From contig NZ_JAUYNV010000019.1 in NCBI RefSeq assembly GCF_030698125.1, positions 62,001 through 126,000 of the forward strand: a stretch of DNA of 64,000 nt, written 5' to 3'. Of the stretch, positions 3,424-55,152 are shown one piece after another. The notes under the pieces were generated by a model, which had not been told where the DNA came from, searched no databases, and was given only the letters and a program-made list of their open reading frames with translations. A program made the translations under genes and the position numbers. The stretch comes from Methyloversatilis sp. (GTDB taxonomy: Bacteria > Pseudomonadota > Gammaproteobacteria > Burkholderiales > Rhodocyclaceae). Positions within the stretch are counted from its first letter, which is position 1. Every line of letters begins with the position of its first letter.

Positions 3424-4698
3424 TTGGAACCGCTGCTTTTCCTCGCGCACAGGTTGCCGTATCCGCCCAACAAGGGCGACAAGATCCGCTCGCATCACCT
3501 GCTGAAGCATCTGGCCCGGCGCTACGAAATCCATGCGGGAGCGTTCGTCGACGACGCGGCGGACCTTCCGCACGTACCGACGCTGGCCGCGACATGCGCG
3601 CAGCTGCACACCGAGCGCATTCATCCGCGCAGCCGGAAGTTCGCCTCCCTGCGCGCGCTGGCGACCGGCGAATCGCTGAGCGTTGCCTACTATCGATCGG
3701 CGGCCATGCAGCGCTGGGTCGACGACACGATTGCACGACACGACATCCGCAAGGTGGTCGTGTTCTGTTCGACCATGGCGCAATACCTCGATCGTCATCC
3801 GCACGTGCGGCGCATCGTCGATCTGGTCGATGTCGACTCGGAAAAGTGGTCCGAGTACGCCGCGCGTCATCGCTGGCCGATGTCCTGGCTTTACCGCCGG
3901 GAGGCGCGCACCCTTTTGCAGCATGAAATGCGCGTGGTCGATGCGTCGGACATGAGTCTGCTGGTGACACCGGCCGAGGTCGCGTTGTTCGAGTCGCTTT
4001 CGCCTGCACTCAAAGGACGCGTGACGCCCCTGCCGAATGGGGTCGACGTGGATTTCTTCCATCCGTGCCAGGCAGGCGCGAATCCTTATCCGGCGTCGGA
4101 GCAGGCGATCGTGTTCACCGGCGCAATGGACTACTGGCCCAACATCGACGCCGCGAGCTGGTTCGCCACCGACGTGATGCCGCACATCCGGGCCGCCCGG
4201 CCGGCGGCGCGTTTCTACATCGTTGGCATGAATCCGTCGGTCGAGGTACGCGATCTGGAGCGACTGGGTTACGTCACCGTGACCGGGCGGGTGGACGACG
4301 TGCGGCCGTGGGTCGCCCATGCGACGTGCGCCGTGGCGCCGCTGCGCGTGGCACGCGGCATCCAGAACAAGGTGCTCGAAGCCATGGCCATGGCCCGGCC
4401 GGTCGTCGTGTCGATGACCTGCGCCGGCAGCCTTGATGCCGAAGCCGGGCGCGATTTCGCCGTCGCGTCGGATGCCCGCTCGTTCGCCGACGCAGTGCTT
4501 TCTCTTTTTGATCCGGTGCATGCCGGCGCCATCGGCGCGCACGCCCGTGCGCGCATCGAACAGGTCTATCGCTGGGACAGCGCACTGGCTGCGCTGGATA
4601 CTTGCCTCGATGCGCCCGCGCGCGACGCAGGTCTGCAGTCATTCATCAAGGAAAGTCATGTCAATGCTGAACCCGGCATCCTTCACTCCCGTGGCTGA
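3424..4698 (+). CDS. GT4-type glycosyltransferase, XrtA system (TIGR03087-like)
   Basis: A 424-aa GT-B glycosyltransferase of the PEP-CTERM/XrtA set. The N terminus EPLLFLAHRLPYPPNKGDKI is characteristic of that group. The C-terminal Rossmann half has IVFTGAMDYWPNIDA and the donor-site region RGIQNKVLEAMAMARPVV, where the Glu of the E-x7-E-like motif lies. The start is TTG at 3424; no better codon lies close to the conserved start. The end overlaps the exosortase gene by about 41 bases. It acts at the cytoplasmic membrane face, adding a sugar to the lipid-linked repeat. Acceptor and donor cannot be read from sequence. Confidence 0.9.
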   Translation: MEPLLFLAHRLPYPPNKGDKIRSHHLLKHLARRYEIHAGAFVDDAADLPHVPTLAATCAQLHTERIHPRSRKFASLRALATGESLSVAYYRSAAMQRWVDDTIARHDIRKVVVFCSTMAQYLDRHPHVRRIVDLVDVDSEKWSEYAARHRWPMSWLYRREARTLLQHEMRVVDASDMSLLVTPAEVALFESLSPALKGRVTPLPNGVDVDFFHPCQAGANPYPASEQAIVFTGAMDYWPNIDAASWFATDVMPHIRAARPAARFYIVGMNPSVEVRDLERLGYVTVTGRVDDVRPWVAHATCAVAPLRVARGIQNKVLEAMAMARPVVVSMTCAGSLDAEAGRDFAVASDARSFADAVLSLFDPVHAGAIGAHARARIEQVYRWDSALAALDTCLDAPARDAGLQSFIKESHVNAEPGILHSRG

Positions 4699-6202
4699 AA
4701 TGCGCCCGGTCAACGGTGCGTGGCGCAGCGCGGGCCCGCTGTTTGTGCTGCTGCTTGCGGTTATGCTGGTCCTGTACTGGGACACGGCCCGTTCCATGGC
4801 CGAAATCTGGCTGCGATCCGAAACCTTCGCGCACGGCCTTCTGGTGGTGCCCATCTTTACCTGGCTGGTGTGGCGCAAACGGGTGGCGCTGTCGAACGTG
4901 TCGCCGCAGCCGTGCCTCTGGGGTCTGGCCGCACTCGCGCTCAGTCTCGCAGGCTGGCTGGCAGCGGAGGTCGCCGGCGTGCAGGTGGTGCGCCAGCTTG
5001 CTTTCGTTGCGTCCATTCCGGCTCTGATCATCGCCGTGCTGGGCTGGCGCATTGCGTGGGTAATTGCCTATCCGCTGGCCTTCCTGTTCCTCGGCGTGCC
5101 GATGGGCGAGAACCTGATGCTGCCGCTGATGAATTTCACCGCCGACTTCACCGTGGGTGCGCTGCAGCTGCTGAACTTCCCGGTCTACCGCGAAGGCACC
5201 TTCTTCGAACTGCCGTCGGGCAGCTGGTCTGTGGTCGAGGCGTGCAGCGGCTTGCGCTACCTCATTTCGTCGGTCACCGTCGGAGCGCTGTTCGCCTATG
5301 TGAGTTATCGCTCGATCTGGCGGCGCGCAGCCTTCATCGTTGCGTCCTTTGTCGTTCCGGTGATCGCCAACGGTTTCCGGGCGCTGATGATCGTGCTGCT
5401 CGCCCACTACTCCGACATGAAGATCGCCACCGGTGTCGATCACATCATCTACGGCTGGGTGTTCTTCGGCGTAATCATGCTGCTGTTGTTCTGGGTCGGA
5501 TCCTTCTGGCAGGAACGCGAGGCAGAGGATGTTCCGCCAGAAGCCGGTTCGGCCGCGTGGCGACCGGTGTCGACGCTCCGGACAGCGGCAGTCGGCATCG
5601 CCGCTGCAGCACTGTTGGCGGGTCCGCTGCTCTATGTGGCTCAACTCGCGCAGCGTCCGCTGCCGCCGCTGCCCGGATTGGCTCTGCCGGTCGAGCCGGG
5701 TGCGGGCTGGACGCTGGATGAGGGGGCGGCGCTGACCGACTGGCGTCCGACGTTCCAGAATCCCGACCGTGAAACCACGCTGCAGTACCGCCGCAACGAC
5801 GAAGTGATCGTCGTGCATCTGGCTTGGTACGGGCGTCAGCGTCAGGACGCCGAACTGATCAACTCCGGCAACTACATGATCGAGCAGGAGCATGACGTGT
5901 GGTCGAACGTCGGCGAGCGCATCGTTTCGAGTTCGCCGCATGCGCTGCGTGAGACGGAACTGCGCTCGTCACGCCTGCGCTTGCTCATCCACGACTGGTA
6001 CGTGGTGGGCGACACGCCGACTGCGAACGGCGTCATCGCAAAGCTGCTGTTCGCACGCAACCTGTTGCTGACCCGTGATGATGCAGGCTACGGGGTCGTG
6101 CTGTACACGCCGCAATCGGAAGACCGGGCAAAGTCCCGGGCGCTGCTGCGCGAATTCGCGGCCTTGCTCGAACCGACGATCGACGAGGCCGTGTCGCCGT
6201 GA
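4658..6202 (+). CDS. xrtA: Exosortase A fused to EpsI domain
   Basis: A 514-aa multi-pass inner-membrane cysteine protease/transpeptidase that cleaves C-terminal PEP-CTERM sorting signals on exported proteins. The proposed catalytic triad is visible: Cys196 in VVEACSGLRY, Arg241 in ANGFRALMIVLLAHYSDM, and His262 in GVDHIIYGWVFFG. About eight hydrophobic segments occupy residues 25-290. After a further membrane segment near residue 310, the C terminus is an EpsI (DUF3485) domain with ALTDWRPTFQNPD and a soluble beta-rich region. I chose ATG 4658 because AAGGAAAG lies just upstream; the start overlaps the previous gene by 41 bases. Its substrates are not in the window. The next gene begins in a TGATG overlap. 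Confidence 0.95.
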   Translation: MSMLNPASFTPVAEMRPVNGAWRSAGPLFVLLLAVMLVLYWDTARSMAEIWLRSETFAHGLLVVPIFTWLVWRKRVALSNVSPQPCLWGLAALALSLAGWLAAEVAGVQVVRQLAFVASIPALIIAVLGWRIAWVIAYPLAFLFLGVPMGENLMLPLMNFTADFTVGALQLLNFPVYREGTFFELPSGSWSVVEACSGLRYLISSVTVGALFAYVSYRSIWRRAAFIVASFVVPVIANGFRALMIVLLAHYSDMKIATGVDHIIYGWVFFGVIMLLLFWVGSFWQEREAEDVPPEAGSAAWRPVSTLRTAAVGIAAAALLAGPLLYVAQLAQRPLPPLPGLALPVEPGAGWTLDEGAALTDWRPTFQNPDRETTLQYRRNDEVIVVHLAWYGRQRQDAELINSGNYMIEQEHDVWSNVGERIVSSSPHALRETELRSSRLRLLIHDWYVVGDTPTANGVIAKLLFARNLLLTRDDAGYGVVLYTPQSEDRAKSRALLREFAALLEPTIDEAVSP

Positions 6203-13036: not shown

Positions 13037-13051
13037 TGGCGGTGGTGGGAC

Positions 13052-22238: not shown

Positions 22239-23197
22239 GCGCCAGTGTCGTAGCCGAGACGTTGTTGCATCGGCTCGATACGATCGAGAATGCGCTCGAC
22301 CAATTCCGGGTTTTGCTGCTTCCACTTCGCCTTCGCAGGCTTGCCCTTTACGATGCTGGTCGGGCGCTGATCCAGGGTGCGGCAGCGCTGCTCGATGTCC
22401 GATGTGAATGCGAGGTCAAGCCGCGCGTAGACGTCGCGGAACATGTCGACAGGGCGTTCGAACAGATCTTCGTAGCGCAGATGTATCCAGCGATCGGGAG
22501 GAAGCAGCGCCGCGGCATCGAGCGCGAGCTGGTTGGCGCTGATCCACTGAAAGGCGCATACCTCTTCAATCGGCGCCTGGTTGTAGGTTCGCCATCCGGG
22601 CGCGAGGAAGAAAGCCCAGTCGGTGTACTCGCCATGGTTGATCGCCACCGGCTCGGGGAAATCGCCGAGAAACTGCGAGAGGTGGAAATCACCATCGGTA
22701 CGGCCGAGACGCCAGCCGTCGATCATCGAACTGATATTGTCGCGTCCGTCACGCTGAATGAAAACGAACTTCGCTTCCGGAAACAGAGCATGCAGGTAGC
22801 CGACGCGCATGACGTTTATGCAGGTCTTGTCCAGGATTCGCCCGCCGCCCAACCGGCGATAGAAGAAGCGCAGTGCGGCATCGCGATGTTCTGGCCGGGC
22901 GTGTTCCGGGCCCGCTGCTTCGGAATGCCAGCCGTTGTTCAGCGGCCCGTACAGGTCATTCCAGAACTGCGGGATTTCGAAGCCGAGATTGACCAGTTCC
23001 GACGACGCGCCGATGGTTTCGAAGGTGACTGTGGTGCCCGAGCGCGAACAGCCGACCAGAAACACGGGCGGGCGCGGCGTCGGACGGGTAAGGTCCCAAT
23101 ACAGCCCGGCCATCTCGCGCTTCAGATGAACGAGGTTCTTTCGGACGATTTCAGGGTCCGTGACCTTGAGGAGCTTTGAAATGATTTTGCGGTTCAT
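22235..23197 (-). CDS. Sulfotransferase family protein
   Basis: A 320-aa PAPS-dependent sulfotransferase. The 5'-phosphosulfate loop is VFLVGCSRSGTTVTFETIG (residues about 45-63). The 3'-phosphate-binding region is KFVFIQRDGRDNISSMIDGW. LRYEDLFERPVDMFRDVYA near the C terminus is also typical. It should transfer sulfate from PAPS to a hydroxyl of a sugar in the exopolysaccharide or its lipid intermediate. No transmembrane anchor is visible. The ATG at 23197 follows the probable pseudogene by 51 bases. Its stop overlaps the next GT2 gene as ATGA, so sulfation and sugar addition are probably co-expressed. Confidence 0.88.
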   Translation of the reverse strand: MNRKIISKLLKVTDPEIVRKNLVHLKREMAGLYWDLTRPTPRPPVFLVGCSRSGTTVTFETIGASSELVNLGFEIPQFWNDLYGPLNNGWHSEAAGPEHARPEHRDAALRFFYRRLGGGRILDKTCINVMRVGYLHALFPEAKFVFIQRDGRDNISSMIDGWRLGRTDGDFHLSQFLGDFPEPVAINHGEYTDWAFFLAPGWRTYNQAPIEEVCAFQWISANQLALDAAALLPPDRWIHLRYEDLFERPVDMFRDVYARLDLAFTSDIEQRCRTLDQRPTSIVKGKPAKAKWKQQNPELVERILDRIEPMQQRLGYDTGA

Positions 23198-35482: not shown

Positions 35483-36480
35483 CGCTTGTCAGCCAACTTC
35501 TGCCAGGCACCTCCAAGTGCCGAACTGAACAGCACTGCCCCGCCGTCGTTCAAATGTCCGGGGTCGGCGAAATGCTCGGGCCCCAGGCGTTTGGCGAGGG
35601 GTACTTCGAGCCAGCGTGCGCCGCGGGCTTCCAGCAGTGACAGAACCTTCGAATATTCACTGGGCGCAGCAGCCGGCCCGAAGGACGACGCACGCTCGAA
35701 CATCGGCACGGCAACAAGATAGACACGGCTACCCGAACTGACCAGTCGTTCTACGAGAGCGCCGAGGGCGTTCGCCATTCGGGGGTCAGGCGGCGCACGG
35801 GTGCCTGCCTCCTGGGCAATGAGCTGTGCGCGGGTCTGGAAGCCCCCGCTGATGCCCCTGCGATAACCGCGGCTCTGCTCTGCACTGCCACCGATGGGGT
35901 CGATGTTCGAGAACGTTGCACTCACGAAACGCAGCAACTTTTCCGGCTCGCGAAGTTGGCGCAGATTGCCGCTGTAGTACCAGGTGCGAAGCCATGAACC
36001 GAACAAGGCGCCGTAGAAGCCGTGCTCGAGCATGTCGCTGCGCGAGGCAAGGAATCCGTAGTAGCCAAGCGAGTCTTCATGCTGAAACAGTGTTTCGTCG
36101 AGCGTGATGAAGACATGTGCAGGTGCAGCCATTCCTTCATCGAGCAGGCGCTCCACGACGCCCTTCAGTACCAGCGTGTTGGCGCCGGGCACGCCAAGAT
36201 TGAAAACTCCCGCGGGCTTGATCAGTCCGGCGCCGGCGGTGAATGCTTCGGGCGACAGACCATTGTCGGCACGGCTGTTCCCGACGAAGAGCACCTCTGG
36301 TCGTTGCCTTGCCAGGAAATCGACTTTGTCGCTGGCGCGCCCGACGGCAAACACAGATCGATAGCGCAGCACCCATGCATCGCTGTGGAGTACCAACTCA
36401 AAGACAAGGAGGAGTGCCAGAGTGATCCAGGGGGTCGCTCCAAGCGCGAACGGAAGCCACGTTCTTCTGATGCCATTCAT
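35479..36480 (-). CDS. SGNH/AlgJ-like putative O-acetylation partner
   Basis: A 333-aa protein with an N-terminal membrane anchor (WLPFALGATPWITLALLLVF) and a periplasmic domain. EVLFVGNSRADNGLSPEAF resembles the GDS-type serine block (here GNSR), and HFADPGHLNDGGAVLFSS gives the late DxxH block of SGNH hydrolases, so the Ser, Asp and His elements are all present. FNLGVPGANTLVLKGVVERL fits the middle block. It is coupled by ATGA to the MBOAT gene, so it probably transfers acyl groups delivered by the MBOAT onto the polysaccharide. Sequence alone does not show whether it is the transferase or a deacetylating esterase. Confidence 0.8.
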   Translation of the reverse strand: MNGIRRTWLPFALGATPWITLALLLVFELVLHSDAWVLRYRSVFAVGRASDKVDFLARQRPEVLFVGNSRADNGLSPEAFTAGAGLIKPAGVFNLGVPGANTLVLKGVVERLLDEGMAAPAHVFITLDETLFQHEDSLGYYGFLASRSDMLEHGFYGALFGSWLRTWYYSGNLRQLREPEKLLRFVSATFSNIDPIGGSAEQSRGYRRGISGGFQTRAQLIAQEAGTRAPPDPRMANALGALVERLVSSGSRVYLVAVPMFERASSFGPAAAPSEYSKVLSLLEARGARWLEVPLAKRLGPEHFADPGHLNDGGAVLFSSALGGAWQKLADKR

Positions 36481-36664: not shown

Positions 36665-39600
36665 TCAGTGAAAACTTCTGACTCTACGGAGCACTTCGGC
36701 AATCCATCCCGTTGATTCAACAGGGGTGCTGCTGCCAAAAACCTCCTGCCGGGTGGTCTTCCCGTCAGCGGAAATCTCAATCGTCGTTCCGATGCGTCCC
36801 GGTTCGAAGGTGAAGCGCAGCGTACGTTCGGAAGTTCTTATTTCGGCGCCAATTCCGTTTTTCACCGGCGTCACCGTTGCCGGCACCTGATCTCCCAGCG
36901 TCGGCTGCAGCACCACCAGAAACTGGTCGCCTGTACTCGCTTGTGACGGGCTCAGTTCGATGCGCCAGTTTCCGGCTTCGAGCGTGCCCGGTTTGCGTCT
37001 GGCGATGTCGAGCAGCACCTTGCCGCTGTTGTCGTGATTGCGGTCATCGACGAAGAATTCGAACCCGGGGCCGCCGATCGGCAAGAGCACTGGTGCGGCG
37101 GGGTGAAGAACGGTACCGAGCAGGCGGCTCGGGCCTGCGGGGGTTGCGCGTTCGATCGTGAATTTCTGTCCGGACACGACGGGCCGGGTCTGGCTGTGCA
37201 ACAGCCAGCGCTTGACGAAATCCGCCCGGGTCGCAACCACGTCGTCGAACACGACGACGGTGTCGCTGTACCGGTCATAAGCGAAGACGCGCCAGGCCCG
37301 TTCGACACGTCGGGTACGTTCGGCGAATCGTCCCTTTCCGGATGAAGGGTTCGTATAGGCCGGTGTGATGTCGGCAACGGCAACGGTCAGGCCGTCCTGC
37401 TCGAACAATTGGCTGATGCGGCCGGTGTGATAGGCCTCACGCTTGCTTTCCCACTCCCCCCTGTCGAGGGGCGCTGCGTCGCCGCCCCAGCCGGAGCCGA
37501 TGCGCCGCTGACCCCCGTCGTTCGCGATGGCGCGTGGCGGCTTGTCGTTGCGAGCAGGCATGGGCGCCGTGTCGGAGGGGTCGGTGACGGTGAGGGTGTT
37601 GTGGGCGATGGTCTGGTACGTATAGTTCAAGTGGTGATCGCTGCCGTACTCGCAGTAGCAACCACTGTCCAGCGCGAGATCGGCCGCCTTGTAGATCATG
37701 AACGCGCCTTGATCCAGATGTGAGTGTGACCAGTAGTTGTCGCCTGCCTTGAAGCTCACGTAGGTCGCATCCGGCTCCCAGCTGCTGCGTGCCACGAGTA
37801 CGCCGAGCCCGTCGAAATGGTGGCTCAGTGGGAGGGCGCGGTCTGCGGTCGCATCGAACAGAAGGTTGTCGGTCAAGGGGCCCCAGGGCCATGAGGTCGG
37901 CCTCGGGGGGCCGCTGCGCCCTGCCCAGACGGAATAGGCCGCGGAGTGACGCAATTCGACTGCCAACGCCACGGCATCCGGTGGCTTGCGATCGACAAAG
38001 GCGATGTCTCCCCAACTGAATGCGGCCTTGTCCGGCCGCTGCCGATAGACGACGAAGTCGAGAAAGCCGCGGATGGCGGGCTCCCTGGCGATGTAGTCCT
38101 CGCCCGTTGCAGAACGCCACATGGCGGGCAACTGATAGATGGCCTGGCCGATGCCGATACCCACATATTCACCGCCTTCGTGCCACCCGCCGTTCTTCCC
38201 GCCCACCTGACGCCATACCGGCAGCACGCGGTTGATCCAGTAATCGTGGGTGAAGGCCATGACGGGCGCCGCTCGCGGGTCGTCCCGGTAGATCGACAGT
38301 GTGCAGGCCATCAGGGCCTGCAGCGGCGAGTTGTAGAGGAAGACGTTATAGGGCGACATCCGCTCGACGCGGATGACGTTGATCTGGTAGTTGCAGGCTT
38401 CGATCACCTTGTCCCGGAGTCTGGGCATCAGATCGGGGGGAATGCGGTGGTGAAGCCAGTCATAGGCCAGGGCGATGGGCTTGGTCTGTTCGTGGCCGCG
38501 CCAGGTGGGCTGGAGCCGGAGCACGTGTTCGACGATGGCGCGTACATCCTGACTGCCGGGTGAAAGGGCTTCCGCGAGGATTGCGTCATTCAGATTTCCG
38601 CGCCCGCCGCCGGCCCGCTTCAGAACCTCCCGGATGTAATCCGGGTTTTCTGCCCGCAGGCGGGCGATGTCGCGGGCATCGGGATGCGGCAGGCGTGGAT
38701 GGCCTGTGCGAAAGCCGGGCAGATCCGGTTCCCGCAAGGTTTCGGCTGCGGGCAGCATGGGTTTCGACTGGGACGTCATGACCATCTCGTCGGGGCTGCG
38801 GCCGAGCGACCACGCCGTGGTCAGTCCCGAGGCGAACACGATCACGGCAAGGTTTGCGCCAAGATATGAGGCGCGTTTTGCTTCCAAAAGCCTGGAACGT
38901 GGCGCAGATGAAGGCTTTGCGCCGCCGCCCAGGTAGCGGACGGCACCCACGGCGGTGATCAGGGCAATGACCGCCGTGGTGATATCCGGCGTGCGGCCCG
39001 GGACGTACTGCTGCATCCATTCCAGCGCAAAGGCAAAAATCCCGCACAGCGCCACGACGGTCGCCGACCAGGCGTGCGACGCAGGCGCGAGCCGGCAGAG
39101 CACCGCGACGATCAGCAGGTAGGGCCACACGGTATCGGCGATGACGCTCAGGCCGAGCATCGGGTTTTCCATATGTGCCGCGAACGGTACGTAGTTCAGC
39201 ACTCGCAGCGCGCCGTTTTCGGGCGCCAGCTCGCTGATGATCAGCGACATCAGGATGGCCAGCAGACTGATTGCCGGGCGATGCGGCTTGAGCGCCCGGG
39301 GTGAGGCGAGGGCGATCAACAAGCCGATGGCGGCGCCCGCCAGCGCCTCGGCGGACAGCTGCCGGCTGACGATGACCACCTTGAGCGCAAGCACGCCGAA
39401 GATGGTCCGGCGCAGCGTGCGACCTACCGGTACCGGGTGTTTGCGCACATCGCGCACGAGCAGCGCAAGCGCCAGTATTTCCAGCGCGGTGGTCAGCGCA
39501 CGCGAACAAGAGAAGCGCGACGGGTCCGTCAACACGGATGCCAGGGGCGCAAGCCCGGACCGGATCGAACCGACGTCGAGCGATGGCACGAAGGGTGAAA

Positions 39601-40105
39601 GCTGGGAAAGTGACCAGCCGAATAGTGCGGCGAGCACCAGGTTGGCTTCGTGCCCCGGCTCGAAACGGCGCACGCGCCATGCATGCGCTGTCGCGTAGAG
39701 CTGACCCCGCGGGTTCAGCAGCCCGACGAGCACTGCGCCGGCGAGCGCTCCACCGGTGTTGAGAATGAAGTCCGACAACGACGGTACGCGCTGCGGCAGA
39801 TGGGATTGGAACGCCTCGACGCTCAGGCTCAGCGCTCCGCCGATCAGCGTTGCGACCAGGACGGAAACGACGAGCGGCCAGCGTGCGGTTGCAAGCCGGA
39901 TACCTGCGCCCAATGGAAGGTAGATCAGCGAATTGACGACCAGGTCGGGAAGTGAAAGCGCGCCGATGTTCCACGTGGACAGAAATGCAAAGGTGTCTTC
40001 GTGGGTCGTCCAGCCGGAGAACGGATACAGACTGCCGTAGGCAATCAGAGTGGCGTACGCCAGCAAGCCGATAAGTATCTGACCGCGCTTCGGGGTGTCT
40101 GACAT
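36665..40105 (-). CDS. VanZ-VanZ-heparinase II/III fusion protein
   Basis: A 1146-aa protein. Residues 1-435 are membrane embedded and contain two VanZ-like signatures: EAFQSHLPQRVPSLSDFILN (about 97-116) and EWMQQYVPGRTPDI (about 362-375), each preceded by hydrophobic helices. After a last helix near 415-433 the rest looks periplasmic. Residues about 470-770 form a helical toroid (YDWLHHRIPPDLMPRLRDKV, KNGGWHEGGEYVGIGIGQAI). From about 775 there is a heparinase II/III beta domain with GDNYWSHSHLDQGAFMIYKA, DSGCYCEYGSDHHLNYTYQT and IAHNTLTVTDPSD. Such domains are polysaccharide lyases for uronic-acid-containing glycans. ATG 40105 precedes the first helix; the track start at 40750 is spurious. 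No strong ribosome site is visible. Confidence 0.85.
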   Translation of the reverse strand: MSDTPKRGQILIGLLAYATLIAYGSLYPFSGWTTHEDTFAFLSTWNIGALSLPDLVVNSLIYLPLGAGIRLATARWPLVVSVLVATLIGGALSLSVEAFQSHLPQRVPSLSDFILNTGGALAGAVLVGLLNPRGQLYATAHAWRVRRFEPGHEANLVLAALFGWSLSQLSPFVPSLDVGSIRSGLAPLASVLTDPSRFSCSRALTTALEILALALLVRDVRKHPVPVGRTLRRTIFGVLALKVVIVSRQLSAEALAGAAIGLLIALASPRALKPHRPAISLLAILMSLIISELAPENGALRVLNYVPFAAHMENPMLGLSVIADTVWPYLLIVAVLCRLAPASHAWSATVVALCGIFAFALEWMQQYVPGRTPDITTAVIALITAVGAVRYLGGGAKPSSAPRSRLLEAKRASYLGANLAVIVFASGLTTAWSLGRSPDEMVMTSQSKPMLPAAETLREPDLPGFRTGHPRLPHPDARDIARLRAENPDYIREVLKRAGGGRGNLNDAILAEALSPGSQDVRAIVEHVLRLQPTWRGHEQTKPIALAYDWLHHRIPPDLMPRLRDKVIEACNYQINVIRVERMSPYNVFLYNSPLQALMACTLSIYRDDPRAAPVMAFTHDYWINRVLPVWRQVGGKNGGWHEGGEYVGIGIGQAIYQLPAMWRSATGEDYIAREPAIRGFLDFVVYRQRPDKAAFSWGDIAFVDRKPPDAVALAVELRHSAAYSVWAGRSGPPRPTSWPWGPLTDNLLFDATADRALPLSHHFDGLGVLVARSSWEPDATYVSFKAGDNYWSHSHLDQGAFMIYKAADLALDSGCYCEYGSDHHLNYTYQTIAHNTLTVTDPSDTAPMPARNDKPPRAIANDGGQRRIGSGWGGDAAPLDRGEWESKREAYHTGRISQLFEQDGLTVAVADITPAYTNPSSGKGRFAERTRRVERAWRVFAYDRYSDTVVVFDDVVATRADFVKRWLLHSQTRPVVSGQKFTIERATPAGPSRLLGTVLHPAAPVLLPIGGPGFEFFVDDRNHDNSGKVLLDIARRKPGTLEAGNWRIELSPSQASTGDQFLVVLQPTLGDQVPATVTPVKNGIGAEIRTSERTLRFTFEPGRIGTTIEISADGKTTRQEVFGSSTPVESTGWIAEVLRRVRSFH

Positions 40106-40327
40106 GGGCGGACGGTGAGGTCGTTCGTTGCGATTGCGCAGTATCCGGCCGCGCCGTGCGGCAGGATCGGGCGGCTGATCGGCTGCGAGGGGGATTCCGA
40201 TTGCTGCAACCCGAAGCTTAGGGCGACGGGCCTGCTCCGGGTAGTGCCCTGAATCACGAACGCACCCGCTCGGCGCATTCCGCACATTCGATCTGTGAGA
40301 AAGTCTGCGCCCGGAGGATTGCGCATC

Positions 40328-45014: not shown

Positions 45015-46403
45015 GTGGTCAGGTTGTTCAGTCACTATGTTCCGTCCGTAACGCTCATGAGACTTGTTGCCGAAGCGTTGGTCCTGTTGATTGCCGGCTT
45101 CGGTGCGGCGTGGATCAGCGCACCGGGCAGCCTCGAATCGCTGTTGCCGGCGCTGGTTCCGGCAGCGGTCTTCGCTGCCGTGATGACCGTGCTGATGAGC
45201 ACGCTCGGCCTGTATCAGCGTGAGCAGCCGCGCAATCTTTCGGAACTTGTCGGGCGCGTGCTGTTTGCCTTCCTGTTGGGCCTCCCGGTGGCTTACATGG
45301 TGTTCCGGCTGTTGCCGCAGGGCAGCATGGCAATGCCGGCGCTCGATGTTTCGCTGTGTCTCGGCTTTGGCGGGATCCTGCTGCTGCGCGCGGCGTCTTT
45401 CGTGCAGGCCGACGGTGCCGGCATGTTTACCCGCCGCATTCTGGTCGTCGGCACGGGCTCTGAGGCCGCTTCCGTGTGGGCCAGTGTTTCGACGTCGGCC
45501 AGTGCGACGCACACCATCGTCGGCTTCGTGTCGGTCGGGGCAGACACTTCAGTGGAAGTACCGAGTGCCATGGTGATGCCGGAAGGCAGTTGCGTGATGC
45601 AGCTGGCGCGCGATCACCGTGCAAATGAAATCGTGGTTGCAGTGCGCGAACGTCGGGGCGGTGTGCTGCCGCTGCGTGAATTGCTGGACTGCAAACTGGC
45701 CGGCGTGACGGTCAATGACCTGTCGAGCTTTTTCGAGCGGATGCGCGGTCAGGTGCGCCTCGATTCGCTGCGCGCCAGCTGGCTGATCTACGGCGACGGC
45801 TTCCGCCAGGGGATCGGCCGCACCGTCGTGAAGCGGCTGTTCGACGTGCTCGCGGCGTCGGTGCTGTTGATCGTGACGGCGCCGGTGATGTTGCTGGCTG
45901 CCATCGCCATCGCGCTGGAATCCGGTTTCCCTGTCATCTACCGTCAGGAGCGTGTTGGCCAGGGTGGCCGTACGTTCAAGGTGCTGAAGTTCCGCAGCAT
46001 GCGTCTGGATGCGGAAGCGGACGGCAAGCCGCGCTGGGCAAGCAACAGCGATGACCGGGTCACCCGCGTCGGCCACTTCATCCGCAAGACGCGCATCGAC
46101 GAACTGCCGCAGATCTTCAACGTGCTGCACGGCGACATGAGCTTTGTCGGGCCGCGTCCGGAACGTCCTTACTTCGTCGATCAGCTGACCGACCAGATCC
46201 CGTTCTACGCCGCGCGTCACTCGGTCAAGCCGGGCATCACCGGCTGGGCCCAGGTGCGCTACGCCTACGGTGCTTCGGTGGATGACGCGGTGCAGAAGCT
46301 GCAGTACGACCTGTACTACGTCAAGAACCACACCCTGTTCCTCGACATGCTGGTGTTGCTGCAGACGGTACGTGTCGTGCTCACCGGCGACGGCGCGCGC
46401 TGA
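45015..46403 (+). CDS. epsB: EpsB-type priming sugar transferase (XrtA system)
   Basis: A 462-aa polyprenyl-phosphate sugar-1-phosphate transferase of the exosortase-associated group (TIGR03013). The N-terminal 130 residues have four or so membrane helices, followed by a Rossmann-like domain (RRILVVGTGSEAASVWASV). A membrane re-entrant segment at about 280 (VVKRLFDVLAASVLLIVTAP) leads to the catalytic domain with VGQGGRTFKVLKFRSMRLDA, FIRKTRIDELPQIFNVLHGD, MSFVGPRPERPYFVDQL and KPGITGWAQVRYAYG. It attaches the first sugar phosphate to undecaprenyl phosphate. The GTG start at 45015 has AAGGGG upstream. It is the first gene of the second plus-strand block. Confidence 0.94.
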   Translation: MVRLFSHYVPSVTLMRLVAEALVLLIAGFGAAWISAPGSLESLLPALVPAAVFAAVMTVLMSTLGLYQREQPRNLSELVGRVLFAFLLGLPVAYMVFRLLPQGSMAMPALDVSLCLGFGGILLLRAASFVQADGAGMFTRRILVVGTGSEAASVWASVSTSASATHTIVGFVSVGADTSVEVPSAMVMPEGSCVMQLARDHRANEIVVAVRERRGGVLPLRELLDCKLAGVTVNDLSSFFERMRGQVRLDSLRASWLIYGDGFRQGIGRTVVKRLFDVLAASVLLIVTAPVMLLAAIAIALESGFPVIYRQERVGQGGRTFKVLKFRSMRLDAEADGKPRWASNSDDRVTRVGHFIRKTRIDELPQIFNVLHGDMSFVGPRPERPYFVDQLTDQIPFYAARHSVKPGITGWAQVRYAYGASVDDAVQKLQYDLYYVKNHTLFLDMLVLLQTVRVVLTGDGAR

Positions 46404-46421
46404 ATCGACGCGACACGTCGC

Positions 46422-46457
46422 CAGGCGCGCGGCAGGGCGCCTTCGGTGACGCGCCTG
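46422..46457. repeat. Overlapping inverted repeats between epsB and prsK
   Basis: CAGGCGCG (46422-46429) is the exact reverse complement of CGCGCCTG (46450-46457). The same left arm (AGGCGC, 46423-46428) can instead pair with GCGCCT (46437-46442). The two hairpins are mutually exclusive. No T-run follows. It may act as a weak terminator or processing site after epsB, but GC-rich sequence can produce such repeats by chance. Confidence 0.35.
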
Positions 46458-46459
46458 CG

Positions 46460-46488
46460 GTGACGATCCCTCGGCCGGCGGGCACAAT
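46460..46488 (+). promoter_or_regulatory. Possible sigma-70 promoter for prsK
   Basis: GTGACG (46460-46465) and CACAAT (46483-46488) each match 4 of 6 consensus positions and are 17 bases apart, ending 33 bases before the prsK ATG. This is weak evidence; transcription could equally continue from epsB. Confidence 0.28.
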
Positions 46489-46521
46489 GCAGCGGTTACC
46501 CCTCACGCTACCGGCCCGTCG

Positions 46522-48609
46522 ATGGAATCCTTCCCCGTAACGTTTGCGCTGTACGCCTATGGCGTGGCAGCGGTCGGTTTCGCCTTGTTCGGGCTGCAGC
46601 TGATCATGGGCGCGCGTCAGTCGCCGCGTGCCCGGCTTTTGTCCGTCTGCATGTTGTCGGGCGCCGTGTGGTGCGCACTTGCGGCGGCCAGCGTGCTCAA
46701 GGGCTACGCCGTATTGCGTACGCTGGTCTATGCGGCTGATGCGCTGCATACACTGCTTTTCCTGCTGTTCCTCGCGGCGTGCGTCATCGATCCCGAAGGC
46801 CGCCGGCCGTTGCCCACACTGCTCAAGCGGCCGTCCTGGCTTCTCCGTTTCGTACTGATTTCCGCGTTGCCCTGCGGCGCGGGCTATGTCGTGCTGTCCT
46901 GGCTGGTGCCAACCGGTGTGGCATCGGTGATGTGGCTGATGGCGTGCGGACTCGGACTGAGTCTGCTCGGCGCGGTGATGATCGAGCAGTTCTACCGCAA
47001 TACCCCTGTGCAGTGGCGCTGGGGCATCAAGCCGATGACGCTGGGCCTCGCGTTCTCGATCACCTTCGATCTCTATTTCTTCTCCGAATCGCTGATGTTC
47101 AGGCAGCAGGACTCGACGCTGTGGGCATCCCGCGGTCTGGTGCATGCGCTCGCGATACCGCTGTTCGCCGTGTCTTCGGCCCGCGTCAGCGAGTGGTCGA
47201 TCCGGCTGAACGTGTCGCGTGACGCGGTATTCCATACCTCGGCACTGGTCATATCGGGTGGCGCGTTGCTCATCATCGCGCTGGCAGGTTATTACGTGCG
47301 CTACTTCGGGGGCGAGTGGGGCCAGGCCTTGCAGACGGTTGTGCTGGCGGCCGGCGCGCTCGGATTCCTTGCGTCGATCGCCTCCGGCAGCGTGCGGGCA
47401 TGGCTGCGTGTTTTCATCAACAAGCACTTCTTCAGCCTGCGCTACGACTACCGGGCCGAGTGGCTGAAGCTGGCCGACACCCTGTACAGCGCGTCCAGCG
47501 TCGACGCACTCCGTCAGGCCTCGATCCGCGTCATGGCCGATCTGGTCGAAAGTCCGGGCGGCATGCTGTGGTTGCGCAGCGAAGCGGGTCATTACGCACC
47601 CGCGGCGCGGCTGAACGTGCCCATGATCGATGCGCGCGAGCCGGCCGACAGCCCGCTGATCAAGTTGCTGCTGGGCAAGATGTGGGTGATCAATGTGGAA
47701 GAGCACCGTTCGCGCCCCGGGGTGTACGGCAGTCTGAGGCTCCCTGAGTGGGTGGCGCAGACGCCGGACGTCTGGCTCATCTGCCCGCTCGGCAGCGAGG
47801 ACATGCCCCTTGGCTTCGTCGTGCTGTGCCGTCCGCGTGCGCTGCTGGATCTGAACTGGGAGGTGCGCGATCTGTTGAAGACAGCCGGGCGCCAGGTGGC
47901 CGGTGTGCTCAATCAGACCCAGGCGATGGAGGCGCTGATCGAGGCGAAGAAGTTCGAAGCCTTTTCCAAGATGAGCGCGTTCGTCGTGCACGACCTGAAA
48001 AATCTCATCGCCCAGCTGTCGCTGCTGCTGCGCAATGCGAAAAAGCACCACGACAACCCCGAATTCCAGCAGGACATGATGGAAACCATCGAACACGCCG
48101 TCGGGCGCATGAACGGCATGCTGCTCCAGCTGCGCTCCGGCACCCAGCCGATCGAGCAGGCCTCACCGGTCGAACTGACGCCGTTGCTCGAGCGACTGCA
48201 TCGGGCCCGTGCGCGCAGCGGCTGCGAACTCGAACTCGATGCGGAAAGCGGCCTGATGGTGCGCGCCCATGAAGATCGTATAGAGCGGGTTGTGGGGCAT
48301 CTTGTGCAGAATGCACTGGATGCCACGCCGCAAAACGGTAAAGTCAGTATCCGTGCGCGCCGCATCGAAGCCGGTGTCGTGATCGAGGTCGAAGACTCCG
48401 GTTGCGGCATGACCGAAGAGTTCATGCGCGAGCGCTTGTTCAAGCCCTTCCAGTCGACCAAGGCGAACGGAATGGGGATCGGCGCATATGAAAGTTTTCG
48501 CTACGTCCACGATCTGGGCGGGCGGATAGAAGTGACCAGCGAACCGGGTCGGGGCAGTCTGTTCCGGCTCGTTTTTCCTCTGCAGGCGGCTGAAGCAGCC
48601 GTTGCTTGA
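46522..48609 (+). CDS. prsK: XrtA/PEP-CTERM system histidine kinase PrsK
   Basis: A 695-aa membrane sensor kinase. Residues 1-300 contain about eight hydrophobic helices (TFALYAYGVAAVGFALFGLQ onward), followed by a GAF-like region (about 320-470). The phosphoacceptor is His490 in SAFVVHDLKNLIAQLSLLLR. The ATPase domain has NALDATPQNGKVS, VEDSGCGMTEEFMRERLFKP, TKANGMGIGAYESFRYVHDL and GRGSLFRLVFPL. With PrsR it forms the conserved exosortase two-component system (TIGR02916). The signal is unknown. The following PrsR ATG lies 11 bases after its stop, with CGGGAG between, so the two are co-expressed. Confidence 0.94.
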   Translation: MESFPVTFALYAYGVAAVGFALFGLQLIMGARQSPRARLLSVCMLSGAVWCALAAASVLKGYAVLRTLVYAADALHTLLFLLFLAACVIDPEGRRPLPTLLKRPSWLLRFVLISALPCGAGYVVLSWLVPTGVASVMWLMACGLGLSLLGAVMIEQFYRNTPVQWRWGIKPMTLGLAFSITFDLYFFSESLMFRQQDSTLWASRGLVHALAIPLFAVSSARVSEWSIRLNVSRDAVFHTSALVISGGALLIIALAGYYVRYFGGEWGQALQTVVLAAGALGFLASIASGSVRAWLRVFINKHFFSLRYDYRAEWLKLADTLYSASSVDALRQASIRVMADLVESPGGMLWLRSEAGHYAPAARLNVPMIDAREPADSPLIKLLLGKMWVINVEEHRSRPGVYGSLRLPEWVAQTPDVWLICPLGSEDMPLGFVVLCRPRALLDLNWEVRDLLKTAGRQVAGVLNQTQAMEALIEAKKFEAFSKMSAFVVHDLKNLIAQLSLLLRNAKKHHDNPEFQQDMMETIEHAVGRMNGMLLQLRSGTQPIEQASPVELTPLLERLHRARARSGCELELDAESGLMVRAHEDRIERVVGHLVQNALDATPQNGKVSIRARRIEAGVVIEVEDSGCGMTEEFMRERLFKPFQSTKANGMGIGAYESFRYVHDLGGRIEVTSEPGRGSLFRLVFPLQAAEAAVA

Positions 48610-48620
48610 CCGGGAGTGAC

Positions 48621-49970
48621 ATGGCAGACAAGGGGCGGACACTGTTGATCGTCGAAGACGATCCGGCGCTGCAGAAGCAGATGCGCTGGAGTTTCGATGA
48701 CTACGAAGTCGTACTGGCCAGCGACCGCGAATCGGCGCTGGCTCAGATCAGGCGCCACGAACCTTCCGTGATCACGATGGACCTCGGGTTGCCGCCGGCG
48801 CCCGACGACGTGACCGAAGGCATGGCACTGCTCGGCGAAATCATGGCGCTTGCGCCGCAGTCCAAGGTCATCGTGCTGACCGGCCAGAACGACCGCGCCA
48901 ACGCGCTGCGGGCGATCGGCATGGGCGCCTACGATTTCTACGCCAAGCCGTTCGAGCCTGACATGCTCGCGCTGCTGATCGAACGGGCATTCCGACTGCA
49001 CGATCTGCAGTCGGAAAACATCCGGCTGGCCAACCAGCATCTGGGTGTCGAAGGGCGATTCATCACGCGTGACGCGGACATGCTTCGCGTGTTGCGGACG
49101 ATCGAAAAGGTATCGGCCACGCGCGCCACGGTGCTGCTGCTCGGCGAAAGCGGGACCGGCAAGGAGGTCCTGGCGAAGACGTTGCACGACCGCTCGGATC
49201 GGGCGAACGAGCGCTTCGTGGCGATCAACTGCGCGGCCATACCGGACAACCTGCTCGAAAGCGAACTGTTCGGCTACGAGAAGGGTGCCTTTACCGGCGC
49301 CACCAAGCAGACGCCCGGCAAGATCGAGGTCGCCAACAAGGGCACGCTGTTCCTCGACGAAATCGGCGACCTGCCGGGTGCGCTCCAGGCGAAGCTGCTG
49401 CGCTTCCTGCAGGAACGCGTCATCGAACGTCTCGGCGGTCGCGACGAGATTCCGATCGACGTGCGCGTGGTCTGCGCCACGCACCAGGATCTGCAGGCAC
49501 TGATCGGTGAAGCGCGGTTCCGTGAGGATCTGTATTACCGCCTGGCGGAAATCGTCGTCACGATTCCGCCGCTGCGCGCACGCGAGGGCGATGCCGCGCT
49601 GCTTGCACATTCCTTCGCGAAACGGTTTTCCGGCGAGCAGGGGCGCAGCGCACTGACGCTGTCACGCGAGGCCGTTGCCGCGATCGAGGCACACAAGTGG
49701 CCCGGCAATGTGCGCGAACTCGAAAATTGCATCAAGCGGGCGACCATCATGGCCGATGGTAGCCAGATCACGGCGGCCGATCTCGGGCTCAAGCCGGCCG
49801 ATCAGGAGGACGCTTTTTTCAATCTGCGGCAGATCCGCGAAGAAGCCGAGCGACGCGCTGTCGTCAGCGTGCTGGCGCGGGTGGATGGAAACATGGTCAA
49901 GGCGGCCGAAGTGCTCGGAGTCAGCCGTCCGACCCTCTATGACCTGATGAACCGTTTCGGTTTGCGCTGA
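48621..49970 (+). CDS. prsR: PEP-CTERM system sigma-54-dependent response regulator PrsR
   Basis: A 449-aa NtrC-type activator. The receiver domain starts TLLIVEDDPALQKQMRWSF and is phosphorylated at Asp54 (VITMDLGLPP). The AAA+ domain has Walker A LGESGTGKEVLAKTLHDRS, the sigma-54 contact loop GYEKGAFTGATKQ with an intact GAFTGA, and the Walker B segment GTLFLDEIGDLPGALQAKLL. The C-terminal Fis-type helix-turn-helix is GNMVKAAEVLGVSRPTLYDL. ATG 48621 has CGGGAG about 6 bases upstream and is preferred to TTG 48606. It belongs to the TIGR02915 group and should activate XrtA-locus and PEP-CTERM genes. Confidence 0.95.
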   Translation: MADKGRTLLIVEDDPALQKQMRWSFDDYEVVLASDRESALAQIRRHEPSVITMDLGLPPAPDDVTEGMALLGEIMALAPQSKVIVLTGQNDRANALRAIGMGAYDFYAKPFEPDMLALLIERAFRLHDLQSENIRLANQHLGVEGRFITRDADMLRVLRTIEKVSATRATVLLLGESGTGKEVLAKTLHDRSDRANERFVAINCAAIPDNLLESELFGYEKGAFTGATKQTPGKIEVANKGTLFLDEIGDLPGALQAKLLRFLQERVIERLGGRDEIPIDVRVVCATHQDLQALIGEARFREDLYYRLAEIVVTIPPLRAREGDAALLAHSFAKRFSGEQGRSALTLSREAVAAIEAHKWPGNVRELENCIKRATIMADGSQITAADLGLKPADQEDAFFNLRQIREEAERRAVVSVLARVDGNMVKAAEVLGVSRPTLYDLMNRFGLR

Positions 49971-49990
49971 AAGCGCTAGGAGTATCTGTC

Positions 49991-52786
49991 TTGAATCGAT
50001 TTCTACCGCGTGAACGCGTCCCGATGAGCCGCCTGGCGGCGGCCTTGTGTTGCGTGGCGCTGCTTGCGGCATGCGACAAGAACCTGCCGCCTGCAGAACT
50101 TGTCACCGAAGCGCGCGCTGCCATCTCGCGCAACGATTATCAGACGGCGTCCATTCAGCTCAAGAACGCCTTGCAGCAGGATGCCGGCAACGCCGCCGCA
50201 CGCTACGAACTCGGACGCGTCCATTTCAAGCAGGGTGACATGCCGTCAGCGATCAAGGAGCTGCAGCGAGCGCGCGAATTGAACCATGACGAGGGAGAGG
50301 TCGTTCCCCTGCTGGCGCGTGCCATGGTGGAAAGCGGAAGCTTCGTCGATGTCATTTCGAATTTCGCGTCGACGAAAATGCCCACGCCGCAGTCCGAAGC
50401 CGATCTGAAGGCGGCGCTCGGCTATGCGTATATGGCAACCCGGAACAATGAAGCGGCGGCGGCGACTTTCGATCAGGCGATCGCCATCGACAGTCAGCAT
50501 CTCTACGCCAGTCTCGGCAAGGCGAGGCTGGCTGCGGTCACCAGGGACGTCGATGGTGCGCGTCGATTGCTCGACAACGTGATTGCTGCCGACAGGGCCG
50601 ACGAAAATGCCTGGTTCCTCGACGCCGAGTTGAAGACCGCAAAGGGGCAGTCCGACGAGGCGCTGGCGTCCTATCGAAAAGTCTATGAAATCAAGCCGGA
50701 CAATGTTCGTGCGCGCTACATCGTCGTGCACGCACTCGCCAACCAGGACAAGTTCGCCGAAGCCCGGGCCGAGCTCGCAGAATTGAAGAAGGCGGTTCCC
50801 AAAGCGCCTGAAGCGTTGTATCTGGAAGGCTTTCTGCTGGTCAAGGAACGCAAGTTCCCCGAGGCACGGCAAACGCTGAGCAAGCTGCTGGCAATTGCGC
50901 CGGACTATGTTCCGGCACTCGGCATGGCGGCCCTGACCGAATTCGAGCTGAAGTCGTACGCTCAGGCCGAACAGTTCGGCGAAAAGGTGTTGGCCGCGGG
51001 TGGCGACTCGCTGTTCATCCGCAAGATATTGATCGGGTCGTATCTGCAGACGGGGCGTATCGCGAAGGCGCAGCAGACCCTGGACCCGCTGTTGCAGAAG
51101 CTCCCCGAAAACGCCGAAGTACAGGCGCTGGCCGGACAGGTATTTCTGATGGCAGGGGATACCGAAAGAGCCGAAAAGGCCTTCTCGGCATCTGCCCGCC
51201 TCAAGCCGGATGACTCGGCGACCCAGTCCAGACTGGGCCTGAGCCGCCTGGCGGCAGGCGATCGCACGGGCGGCATCGCCGCGCTGGAGAATGCAGTACG
51301 CCTGGAGGCGGATGACACGCGCCCCGATGTCCTTCTGATCGTGGCACATCTGCGCAATCGCGACGCGGACAAGGCACTCGTCGCAATCGACGCACTGGAA
51401 AAGAAGAAGCCGGGCGACCCCATGACGCCGAATCTGAGGGGGACGGCCTACCTGTTGAAGAAGGACTCCGCCAAGGCCCGCGAGAGCTTCCAAAAGGCGC
51501 TTGAAATAGAACCGTCATTCTTCCCGGCAGCATCCAACCTTGCCCGGATGGATTTGCTGGACAAGGACGCGGCCGCTGCCGAGTCCCGCTTCCGCAGCAT
51601 ATTGGCGAAGACGCCACAGCATCCGGATGCGCTGCTCGCGCTGGCCGGCTTGAAAGCACGCACCAAGGAAGGCGCGCCAGAAGCCGTGCAGTTGCTTGAT
51701 CAGGCGGTGAAGGCAAACGCCAAGCTGGTGGCGCCGCGCATAGCGCTCGTCCAGTTGCTGTCTGTCATGGGAGAAAAGAAGAAAGCGCTGGCGGCTGCAA
51801 ACGACGCCGCGCTGGCCTTGCCGGACGACACGCAAGTGCTTGAATTGCTTGCATCGACCCAGGCGCTCGCCGGAGAGACCGACGCAGCGATTCTGACGCA
51901 GGAAAAGCTGGTCGCGCGTTCGCCGTCGAGCGCGCAGCCGCTGCTGCGTCTGGCCGCTACACAGATGGTCGCAAAGCGCGAATCCGAAGCGCTTCAGAAT
52001 GTACGCAAGGCGCTGACACTGGAGCCCAGGTCGCTGGATGCGCAGAACATGCTGATGTCAATCCACCTCGATCGTGGCGCGCTTGATGATGCATTGAAGG
52101 TCACGCGGGACATTCAGCGCCAGAATCCCGATCTGGCATTGGGGTATGCGATGGAAGGTGAAGTGCTCGCCAGGTCGGGCAAAACTGACGCGGCAGTGAA
52201 GCCCTATCGCGAGGCGCTTGCGCGTGAGCGCAACGCACGCAACGTCGTAAGGCTGCACGGCGCGCTCAGTCGTTCGAGCAATGGCGCTGCGGAGGCGAAG
52301 GCTGTCGTGGATGGCTGGATGAAGGACAAACCGGAAGACAACGCCGTGCCCGCCTACCTTGCGGAGTACGCGCTGTCCCAGAAGCACTATGACGAGGCCA
52401 GCCAGCGTTATGAAGCGCTGCTCAAGCGCGTGCCGAACGATCCCATCGTCCTGAACAATCTGGCCTGGCTGGCTGCGCAGCGCAATGACAGCAAGGCGAT
52501 GGACTACGCCGAGCGGGCCTATGCGGCGTCGCCCGACAATCCGGCCGTGCTCGACACCTACGGCACCATCCTGTTCGACAGCGGTGATACCGAACGCGGC
52601 CTGACGATGCTGAAGCAGGCCGTCGCCGCCGCTCCGGCCGCACACGATCTGCGACTGAATCTCGCACAGCGGCTGGTCAAGGCAGGCAGGAAATCGGAAG
52701 CACGCAAGGAACTCGAACCCCTGGTGGCACTGGGTGACAAGTTTACGCGATCGGCGGAAGTGTCCGAACTGATGAAGAATCTTTGA
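49991..52786 (+). CDS. prsT: XrtA/PEP-CTERM system TPR lipoprotein PrsT
   Basis: A 931-aa lipoprotein (TIGR02917 group). The start is TTG at 49991 with AGGAG about 9 bases upstream; ATG 50024 would shorten the signal peptide and has no ribosome site. The signal is RLAAALCCVALLAAC with the lipidated Cys28 in LLAAC. Asp follows the Cys, which by the E. coli Lol rule would favour the inner membrane. The remaining 900 residues are tetratricopeptide repeats, for example AARYELGRVHFKQGDMPSAI and MTPNLRGTAYLLKKDSAKAR. It is thought to scaffold EPS assembly and export, similar to PelB/PgaA/BcsC TPR regions. It lies 20 bases after prsR and 22 bases before tviB. Confidence 0.93.
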   Translation: MNRFLPRERVPMSRLAAALCCVALLAACDKNLPPAELVTEARAAISRNDYQTASIQLKNALQQDAGNAAARYELGRVHFKQGDMPSAIKELQRARELNHDEGEVVPLLARAMVESGSFVDVISNFASTKMPTPQSEADLKAALGYAYMATRNNEAAAATFDQAIAIDSQHLYASLGKARLAAVTRDVDGARRLLDNVIAADRADENAWFLDAELKTAKGQSDEALASYRKVYEIKPDNVRARYIVVHALANQDKFAEARAELAELKKAVPKAPEALYLEGFLLVKERKFPEARQTLSKLLAIAPDYVPALGMAALTEFELKSYAQAEQFGEKVLAAGGDSLFIRKILIGSYLQTGRIAKAQQTLDPLLQKLPENAEVQALAGQVFLMAGDTERAEKAFSASARLKPDDSATQSRLGLSRLAAGDRTGGIAALENAVRLEADDTRPDVLLIVAHLRNRDADKALVAIDALEKKKPGDPMTPNLRGTAYLLKKDSAKARESFQKALEIEPSFFPAASNLARMDLLDKDAAAAESRFRSILAKTPQHPDALLALAGLKARTKEGAPEAVQLLDQAVKANAKLVAPRIALVQLLSVMGEKKKALAAANDAALALPDDTQVLELLASTQALAGETDAAILTQEKLVARSPSSAQPLLRLAATQMVAKRESEALQNVRKALTLEPRSLDAQNMLMSIHLDRGALDDALKVTRDIQRQNPDLALGYAMEGEVLARSGKTDAAVKPYREALARERNARNVVRLHGALSRSSNGAAEAKAVVDGWMKDKPEDNAVPAYLAEYALSQKHYDEASQRYEALLKRVPNDPIVLNNLAWLAAQRNDSKAMDYAERAYAASPDNPAVLDTYGTILFDSGDTERGLTMLKQAVAAAPAAHDLRLNLAQRLVKAGRKSEARKELEPLVALGDKFTRSAEVSELMKNL

Positions 52787-52808
52787 TCTTGAATTGGGGA
52801 ATAGTGCG

Positions 52809-54089
<1,281 letters not shown>

Positions 54090-54096
54090 GTCCGGC

Positions 54097-55152
54097 GTGA
54101 CGCAGTTGTCCGCACTCCCCCAAGGCGTCGTCGCAGCGCTGTCGGCGCAACCGCGCCGCTGGCTGGTGACCGGTGCCGCCGGCTTCATCGGCTCCCATCT
54201 GGTCGAAGTGCTGTTGCAGGCGGATCAGCAGGTGGTGGCGCTCGACAACTTCTCGACCGGTCACCAGCGCAACCTCGACGAGGTGCTGGCCGGCGTAACG
54301 GCTGCGCAACGTGCCCGGCTCGAGTTCGTGCGCGGCGACATCCGTGATCTGGCCACCTGTGCGCCGGTCTGTGCCGGCGTCGATGTGGTGCTGCATCAGG
54401 CCGCGCTCGGCTCGGTGCCGCGATCGCTGGCCGATCCGCTGGCGACGCACGATTCGAATGTCAATGGCTTCCTGAACATGCTGGTGGCGGCGCGCGATGC
54501 CGGCGTGTCGCGCTTCGTCTATGCGGCGTCCAGTTCCACCTATGGCGATTCGCCGACGCTGCCGAAGGTGGAAGACGTCATCGGCCGGCCGCTGTCGCCG
54601 TACGCCGTCACCAAATACGTCAACGAACTGTATGCCGATGTGTTCGGTCGCTGCTACGGACTGCAGTGCGTCGGTCTGCGCTACTTCAACGTGTTCGGTG
54701 CGCGCCAGGATCCGGAAGGCGCCTACGCGGCGGTGATTCCGAAATGGGCGCGCGCGCTGCTGCTGGGTGACACCGTGCGCATCAACGGCGACGGCGAAAC
54801 CAGTCGTGATTTCTGCTACATCGACAACACGGTGCAGGCCAATCTGCTCGCCGCGCTGACGACGCGCGCCGACGCCGTGAACACCGTCTACAACGTGGCG
54901 GCGCACCGCCAGACGACGCTGAACCAGCTGTTCGACGCCATGCGCGCCGAACTCGTCGTTCGCTTTCCCGACATCGCAAAGGCGCAGGCGCAGCACCAGG
55001 ACTTCCGCGCCGGCGACGTGCGTCATTCGCTGGCCGACATCGGCCGCGCGCAGACGCTGCTGGGTTACGTACCGAGTCACGATGTCAGTCGCGGTCTGGC
55101 CGAGGCGATGGACTGGTACATCGCGCGCTTTGCACCGGTTGCGGCGGCCTGA
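54097..55152 (+). CDS. tviC: UDP-GlcNAc(A) 4-epimerase (TviC/WbpP-like)
   Basis: A 351-aa extended short-chain dehydrogenase. NAD binding: [20 protein letters not shown]. Subgroup-specific segments are [38 protein letters not shown] and [20 protein letters not shown] with the catalytic Yxxx[21 protein letters not shown] and [16 protein letters not shown] complete the match. It inverts C4 of UDP-GlcNAcA (or UDP-GlcNAc). GTG 54097 follows the TviB stop by 7 bases and gives the family-typical N terminus; the ORF-track start lies inside tviB. The next gene begins two bases after its stop. Confidence 0.93.

Follow-up and report, generated by a model that had tools for sequence, protein, structure and literature searches.

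A predicted triple VanZ-like membrane module fused to a heparinase II-like domain in an XrtA/PEP-CTERM exopolysaccharide locus

A single open reading frame in an XrtA/PEP-CTERM exopolysaccharide (EPS) locus of Methyloversatilis sp. joins a VanZ-like membrane module to a heparinase II-like domain, and this fusion is real and patchy in its distribution. The stretch of DNA analyzed, hereafter called the window, is 64,000 nucleotides long. We propose, at a probability of roughly 0.55, that the product is an inner-membrane enzyme of the XrtA/PEP-CTERM EPS system, in which the VanZ module would dock a lipid-linked glycan and a periplasmic lyase would trim, release or clear it. The gene is organized as follows:

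36665..40105 (-): whole gene, 1146 aa, with the predicted triple VanZ-like module, TM13 and the heparinase II-like domain; start ATG at 40105
39716..40087 (-): VanZ unit 1, residues 7-130 (Pfam VanZ at residues 25-130; AlphaFold2 helices)
39290..39664 (-): predicted middle VanZ-like unit, degenerate, residues 148-272 (hhalign via a sister family)
38921..39298 (-): VanZ unit 3, residues 270-395 (hhalign to unit 1; NCBIfam vanZ_1 at residues 342-377)
38897..38920 (-): low-confidence linker at the seam of the modules, residues 396-403 (pLDDT < 50)
38801..38893 (-): predicted transmembrane helix TM13, residues 405-435 (AlphaFold2 helix; positive-inside counts)
37871..38740 (-): alpha-helical toroid, residues about 456-745 (Pfam, alignment, AlphaFold2, structural match)
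38165..38167 (-): codon of Y647, aligned with the catalytic Tyr257 of heparinase II
36731..37870 (-): beta domain, residues about 746-1125 (Pfam, NCBIfam, AlphaFold2, structural match)
37601..37726 (-): H794, H796, D813 and H835, aligned with His406, His408, Asp425 and His451 of heparinase II

The single 1146-aa frame claimed by the initial annotation is open throughout, from the ATG at 40105 to its stop end at 36665; its strand, which had not been given, is minus. Upstream of this ATG the frame stays open as far as a TTG at 40750, and the alignments of most of the full-length orthologs begin within approximately the first 25 residues of the ATG product. Pfam VanZ matched the protein over two stretches (8.9e-15; 55.9 bits against a gathering threshold of 30.1), and Hepar_II_III_C (1.1e-10) and DUF4962 (4.7e-8) were likewise above their curated cut-offs, which upholds both domain assignments of the initial annotation. 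A search for the same fusion elsewhere yielded an alignment of 36 near-full-length orthologs (35 loci from a species-wide scan plus the window protein) from beta- and gammaproteobacteria, with identities of 37-95% to the window protein. All three domains, VanZ, DUF4962 and Hepar_II_III_C, were matched in 36/36 members, which excludes chance and assembly error. Natural split forms do occur, as separate genes at locus L030 and as two overlapping frames at L026 and L040, and would agree with a frameshift or assembly error having fused two neighboring genes; however, the frame is open in 36 genomes, and in a sample drawn evenly from the class 13 genomes have the fusion (one of them as a fragment only), and with these orthologs at hand that explanation has practically no chance of being correct. 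Within the alignment, the VanZ half diverges faster than the lyase half (mean p-distance of 0.66 versus 0.44), and the distances of the two halves correlate at 0.74.

The window is an XrtA/PEP-CTERM EPS locus that encodes XrtA, a PEP_O_lig_1 ligase, a PEP-system amidotransferase, glycosyltransferases, Wzx, EpsB_2, PrsK, PrsR, PrsT, and TviB-like and TviC-like enzymes. The neighbors that matter most here are:

4433..6202 (+): exosortase A, XrtA (TIGR03109, 343 bits; cut-off 208)
34055-35482 (-): MBOAT acyltransferase, downstream after the SGNH-like gene (Pfam, 1e-27)
35479-36480 (-): SGNH-like protein, next downstream of the fusion on the same strand (from motif reading only, without a Pfam match)
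45015..55152 (+): EPS core near the fusion, with EpsB_2, PrsK, PrsR, PrsT, TviB-like and TviC-like genes

The gene order of fusion, SGNH-like protein and MBOAT acyltransferase is also kept in loci L001-L005. A sulfotransferase is encoded in the EPS locus at 22235-23197 (-) (Sulfotransfer_3, 1.1e-22), and together with the GalNAcA-type enzymes it suggests a sulfated, glycosaminoglycan-like polymer. Beside Wzx lies a 645-aa protein (29432-31369, -) with no relative in Pfam, NCBIfam or the PDB, although relatives are present in the Thauera and Aromatoleum loci. The divergently transcribed 408-aa neighbor of the fusion (40295-41521, +) gave only a weak glycosyl hydrolase 57 match and stays beside the fusion in Methyloversatilis relatives, and relatives of a trypsin-like protease (56044-56805, +) lie near the fusion in ten gammaproteobacterial loci. 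Elsewhere in the same genome, on contig C46 (45060-57531), a small VanZ protein is encoded approximately 11 kb from a second exosortase that falls below the XrtA cut-off. A search for sigma-54 sites with up to two mismatches gave 95 matches against 89 expected, none of them convincing at the fusion gene.

The AlphaFold2 model (mean pLDDT of 82.9) displayed a membrane half of 12 transmembrane helices in three groups of four, followed by TM13. The two VanZ-type signatures reported by the initial annotation are at the residues given, as E97xxQ100...D112xxxN116 and E362xxQ365...GRxPD374; the count of two units fell short, as three VanZ-like units were found, the middle one lying below the sensitivity of Pfam. 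We scored the active site against the lipocone definition, in which the VanZ-1 pattern consists of an Asn in H2, ExxQ in H3 and D...N in H4 (PMC12419801). Unit 1, with helices at residues 7-26, 52-72, 78-100 and 110-129, contains the complete pattern, and its residues are conserved across the 36 members as N58 (34/36), E97 (34/36), Q100 (35/36), D112 (36/36) and N116 (34/36); the first Asp of the published DxDDxxxN is a Ser in 31/36. Unit 3 (helices 270-292, 315-339, 344-367 and 375-393) is homologous to unit 1 (hhalign 97.5%, 5.5e-12) and retains ExxQ and D374, while column counts show the Asn residues of H2 and H4 to be absent. The full pattern is hence found in unit 1 and missing from units 2 and 3. 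For the middle unit (helices 152-169, 200-219, 228-244 and 252-267), a direct comparison with unit 1 reached a probability of only 17.8%. We call it VanZ-like because the middle unit of a sister family, W2, bridges the two, matching unit 1 of the window protein at 97.2% (4e-11) and unit 2 at 91.5% (8.8e-7). The membrane half is thus predicted to be a triple VanZ module with a degenerate middle unit.

With the N-terminus inside, the predicted cytoplasmic loops carry 10 Lys/Arg per 58 residues and the outside loops 8 per 115. Such an N-in topology would place the polar residues of unit 1 on the periplasmic side of the membrane, and TM13 is predicted to bring the lyase into the periplasm. At L030, the lyase occupies its own frame of 746 aa that starts with a transmembrane helix equivalent to TM13 and adjoins separate VanZ frames, indicating that TM13 is part of the lyase module. 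This locus (L030:1801-5274) is a natural split, with a divergent, separate VanZ gene beside a gene for a membrane-anchored lyase.

The helical toroid and beta domain noted earlier after the VanZ part were both predicted by the AlphaFold2 model. Among solved structures, heparinase II (PDB 2FUQ) is closest in sequence (2.5e-43 with a single sequence, 1.2e-61 with a profile) and is the best structural match in Foldseek (E-value of 3.3e-26; TM-score of 0.69 on the target). Its Tyr257 and His406 we take to be catalytic, and its His408, Asp425 and His451 to be Zn ligands; the equivalent residues Y647, H794, H796, D813 and H835 are invariant in 36/36 members. The invariant residues of the toroid are N592, H642, E643 and Y647. 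In the region of His202 and Glu205 of heparinase II the alignment is gapped, and the nearest invariant candidate is N592. NCBIfam HepB matched at 5.9e-46 with 156.8 bits against an equivalog cut-off of 600, and by this profile score the lyase domain is a distant relative of HepB and not HepB itself.

A second family carries the same platform on a different partner. Eight class-sample genomes (L050-L057; e.g., L054:5373-8690 on the minus strand) contain frames of 1096-1170 aa that begin with the VanZ platform and continue into a polytopic region. The first VanZ unit of this family, W1, matches unit 1 of the window protein at 99.9% in hhalign. Most of these frames gave sub-threshold Wzy_C or O-antigen-ligase matches, the best for Wzy_C being 2.7e-7 with 30.9 bits, below the cut-off of 31.7, and they also contain a beta insert that resembles carbohydrate-binding modules by weak, sub-threshold fold-search matches. 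AlphaFold2 modeled the VanZ-Wzy fusion poorly (pLDDT of 58.4), so that the label rests on the sub-threshold Wzy_C matches and on the appearance of the motifs, and we assign the C-terminal half as Wzy/WaaL-like on a provisional basis. The XrtA cut-off was passed by 7/8 of these genomes, and none of the eight is among the 13 genomes with the lyase fusion.

When one genome from each of approximately 85,000 species was scanned, 45 loci were returned; those named are in Methyloversatilis, Thiobacillus, Thauera, Aromatoleum, Thiohalobacter, Methylothermaceae, Chromatiaceae and other beta- and gammaproteobacteria. In the class sample of 369 evenly drawn genomes the fusion was present in 13, once as a fragment of only 604 aa and once as a tandem duplicate. 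One genome carries two VanZ-lyase fusions in direct tandem (L062:5740-9519 and 9528-13082). In a phylum-wide sample of 299 genomes (E <= 1e-60), the window's own genome was the sole match.

XrtA exceeded its cut-off in 25 of the 30 genomes behind the scan loci, and in 12/13 fusion genomes versus 73/369 of the class sample (Fisher p = 1.8e-8, ignoring shared ancestry); in class-sample genomes with both on one contig, the two genes lie 3-52 kb apart. Relatives of the VanZ module (E <= 1e-18) were counted in 39 class-sample genomes, a hand tally that includes a few single-unit proteins, and 30/39 have XrtA (p = 1.6e-16, ignoring shared ancestry). Both its position in the locus and its co-occurrence with XrtA place the fusion among the components of the XrtA/PEP-CTERM EPS system. 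A TviB-like dehydrogenase was found in 13/13 fusion genomes versus 214/369 (58%) of the sample (p = 7e-4, ignoring shared ancestry), which is consistent with, though no proof of, a uronic-acid substrate. This occurrence makes it plausible that the fusion protein cuts the strain's own uronic-acid EPS.

In the reading that we favor, the 12 transmembrane helices would form three VanZ (lipocone) units, with units 2 and 3 mostly structural and unit 1, whose polar residues would face the periplasm, binding or cleaving an undecaprenyl-linked glycan. The platform would keep growing or stalled EPS chains at the membrane while the periplasmic heparinase II-like domain after TM13 breaks uronate linkages by beta-elimination, using Y647 and H794 with Zn held by H796, D813 and H835, and the chains would be trimmed, released or cleared in a role comparable to that of AlgL in alginate synthesis. 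The sequence itself shows the fusion, its conservation, the catalytic residues and the locus; the topology and the three units are predictions, and the lipid-linked substrate, the lyase activity and the trimming or clearance role are what we infer. The partner of the platform is a periplasmic lyase here and a polymerase/ligase-like protein in the sister family, and the simplest reading is that the platform docks undecaprenyl-linked EPS and perhaps also acts on it as an enzyme; that two fusions of the same platform are both tied to XrtA suggests a lipid-linked glycan as the VanZ ligand. VanZ-1 itself is predicted to act on polyprenyl-linked head groups in the outer leaflet and has been tied to exopolysaccharide genes (PMC12419801). 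The initial annotation envisaged a membrane-tethered lyase at the export site, and this is well supported by the anatomy, the catalytic residues, the locus and the predicted location in the periplasm, while its suggested role in length control, editing or release would be one possibility; overlooked were the third unit, the lipocone site intact in unit 1 only, the XrtA/PEP-CTERM nature of the locus, the Wzy/WaaL-like partner and the alternative of an epimerase activity. We tentatively entertain, as a somewhat unlikely possibility, that both halves act in release: the lyase would cut near the lipid end and unit 1 would free the stub from undecaprenyl (pyro)phosphate, so that one protein ends the chain and recycles the carrier. 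The triple-VanZ module would then be a general dock of XrtA systems, used by the Wzy-like fusion at the polymerization step.

The VanZ half might instead be a mere anchor or scaffold that neither catalyzes nor binds lipid-linked glycan, leaving all the work to the lyase. Its faster divergence, the loss of the active-site pattern in two of three units and the L030 lyase, which is a gene of its own with a single transmembrane anchor, would agree with this; however, the pattern of unit 1 is retained in 34-36 of 36 members, and a mere anchor would not account for the recurrence of the platform on a Wzy-like partner in XrtA genomes. We consider this reading unlikely. Concerning the other half, the C-terminal domain could be a uronate C5-epimerase that edits EPS in the periplasm, with the VanZ platform as its anchor only. 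Dermatan sulfate epimerase and these lyases have a common fold and a common Tyr/His active site, and it is the structural match to dermatan sulfate epimerase 1 (6hzn; E-value of 2.8e-16) that keeps an epimerase in consideration. Yet heparinase II is much closer by both sequence and structure, and sequence searches of the PDB gave lyases only (heparinase II and alginate lyases), the epimerase appearing by structure alone; it is not the closest sequence family of this domain, and we judge an epimerase to be rather improbable. Most characterized heparinase II/III-type enzymes are catabolic, which would fit a protein that degrades exogenous uronic-acid glycans as nutrients and takes no part in EPS assembly. 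Against such a role, which we regard as very improbable, stand the EPS synthesis locus with XrtA, Wzx, glycosyltransferases and PrsK, PrsR and PrsT, the inner-membrane tether and the fact that the presence of the fusion follows XrtA; moreover, among the window genes that we searched, none for uptake or catabolism turned up.

The single parts are known, and the VanZ-lyase combination is apparently undescribed: in a literature search that covered few subscription papers, we did not find VanZ combined with heparinase and exopolysaccharide, exosortase combined with heparinase or with VanZ, or heparinase II in exopolysaccharide gene clusters. VanZ is widespread, and the fusion is valuable mainly because it opens VanZ function to testing, in a bacterium that is not a pathogen. 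It is also a candidate for the enzyme that trims or clears the exopolysaccharides of PEP-CTERM systems, which matter for floc formation (PMC9850573).

Compared with VanZ-1 as described (PMC12419801), where a lyase partner is absent from the main text, unit 1 of the window protein has the same four-helix unit, residues at the periplasmic face and association with EPS genes, but the window protein is predicted to have three tandem units, two of them degenerate. The VanZ-Wzy sister family has a three-unit platform, a similar length and a link to XrtA; in place of the lyase it has a polytopic Wzy/WaaL-like half and an insert resembling carbohydrate-binding modules. Heparinase II of Pedobacter heparinus (PL21, PDB 2FUQ) has the same toroid and beta domain, with Tyr257, His406 and the Zn ligands aligned, at approximately 20% identity in the structural alignment; unlike heparinase II, the window lyase is fused to a membrane module and encoded within an EPS synthesis locus. 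AlgL, which clears periplasmic alginate in Pseudomonas (PMC8829089), resembles the window lyase, as predicted here, in that it is a periplasmic lyase with an alpha-toroid and accompanies an EPS assembly system, whereas it is soluble, belongs to another lyase family, is without VanZ and has a known substrate.
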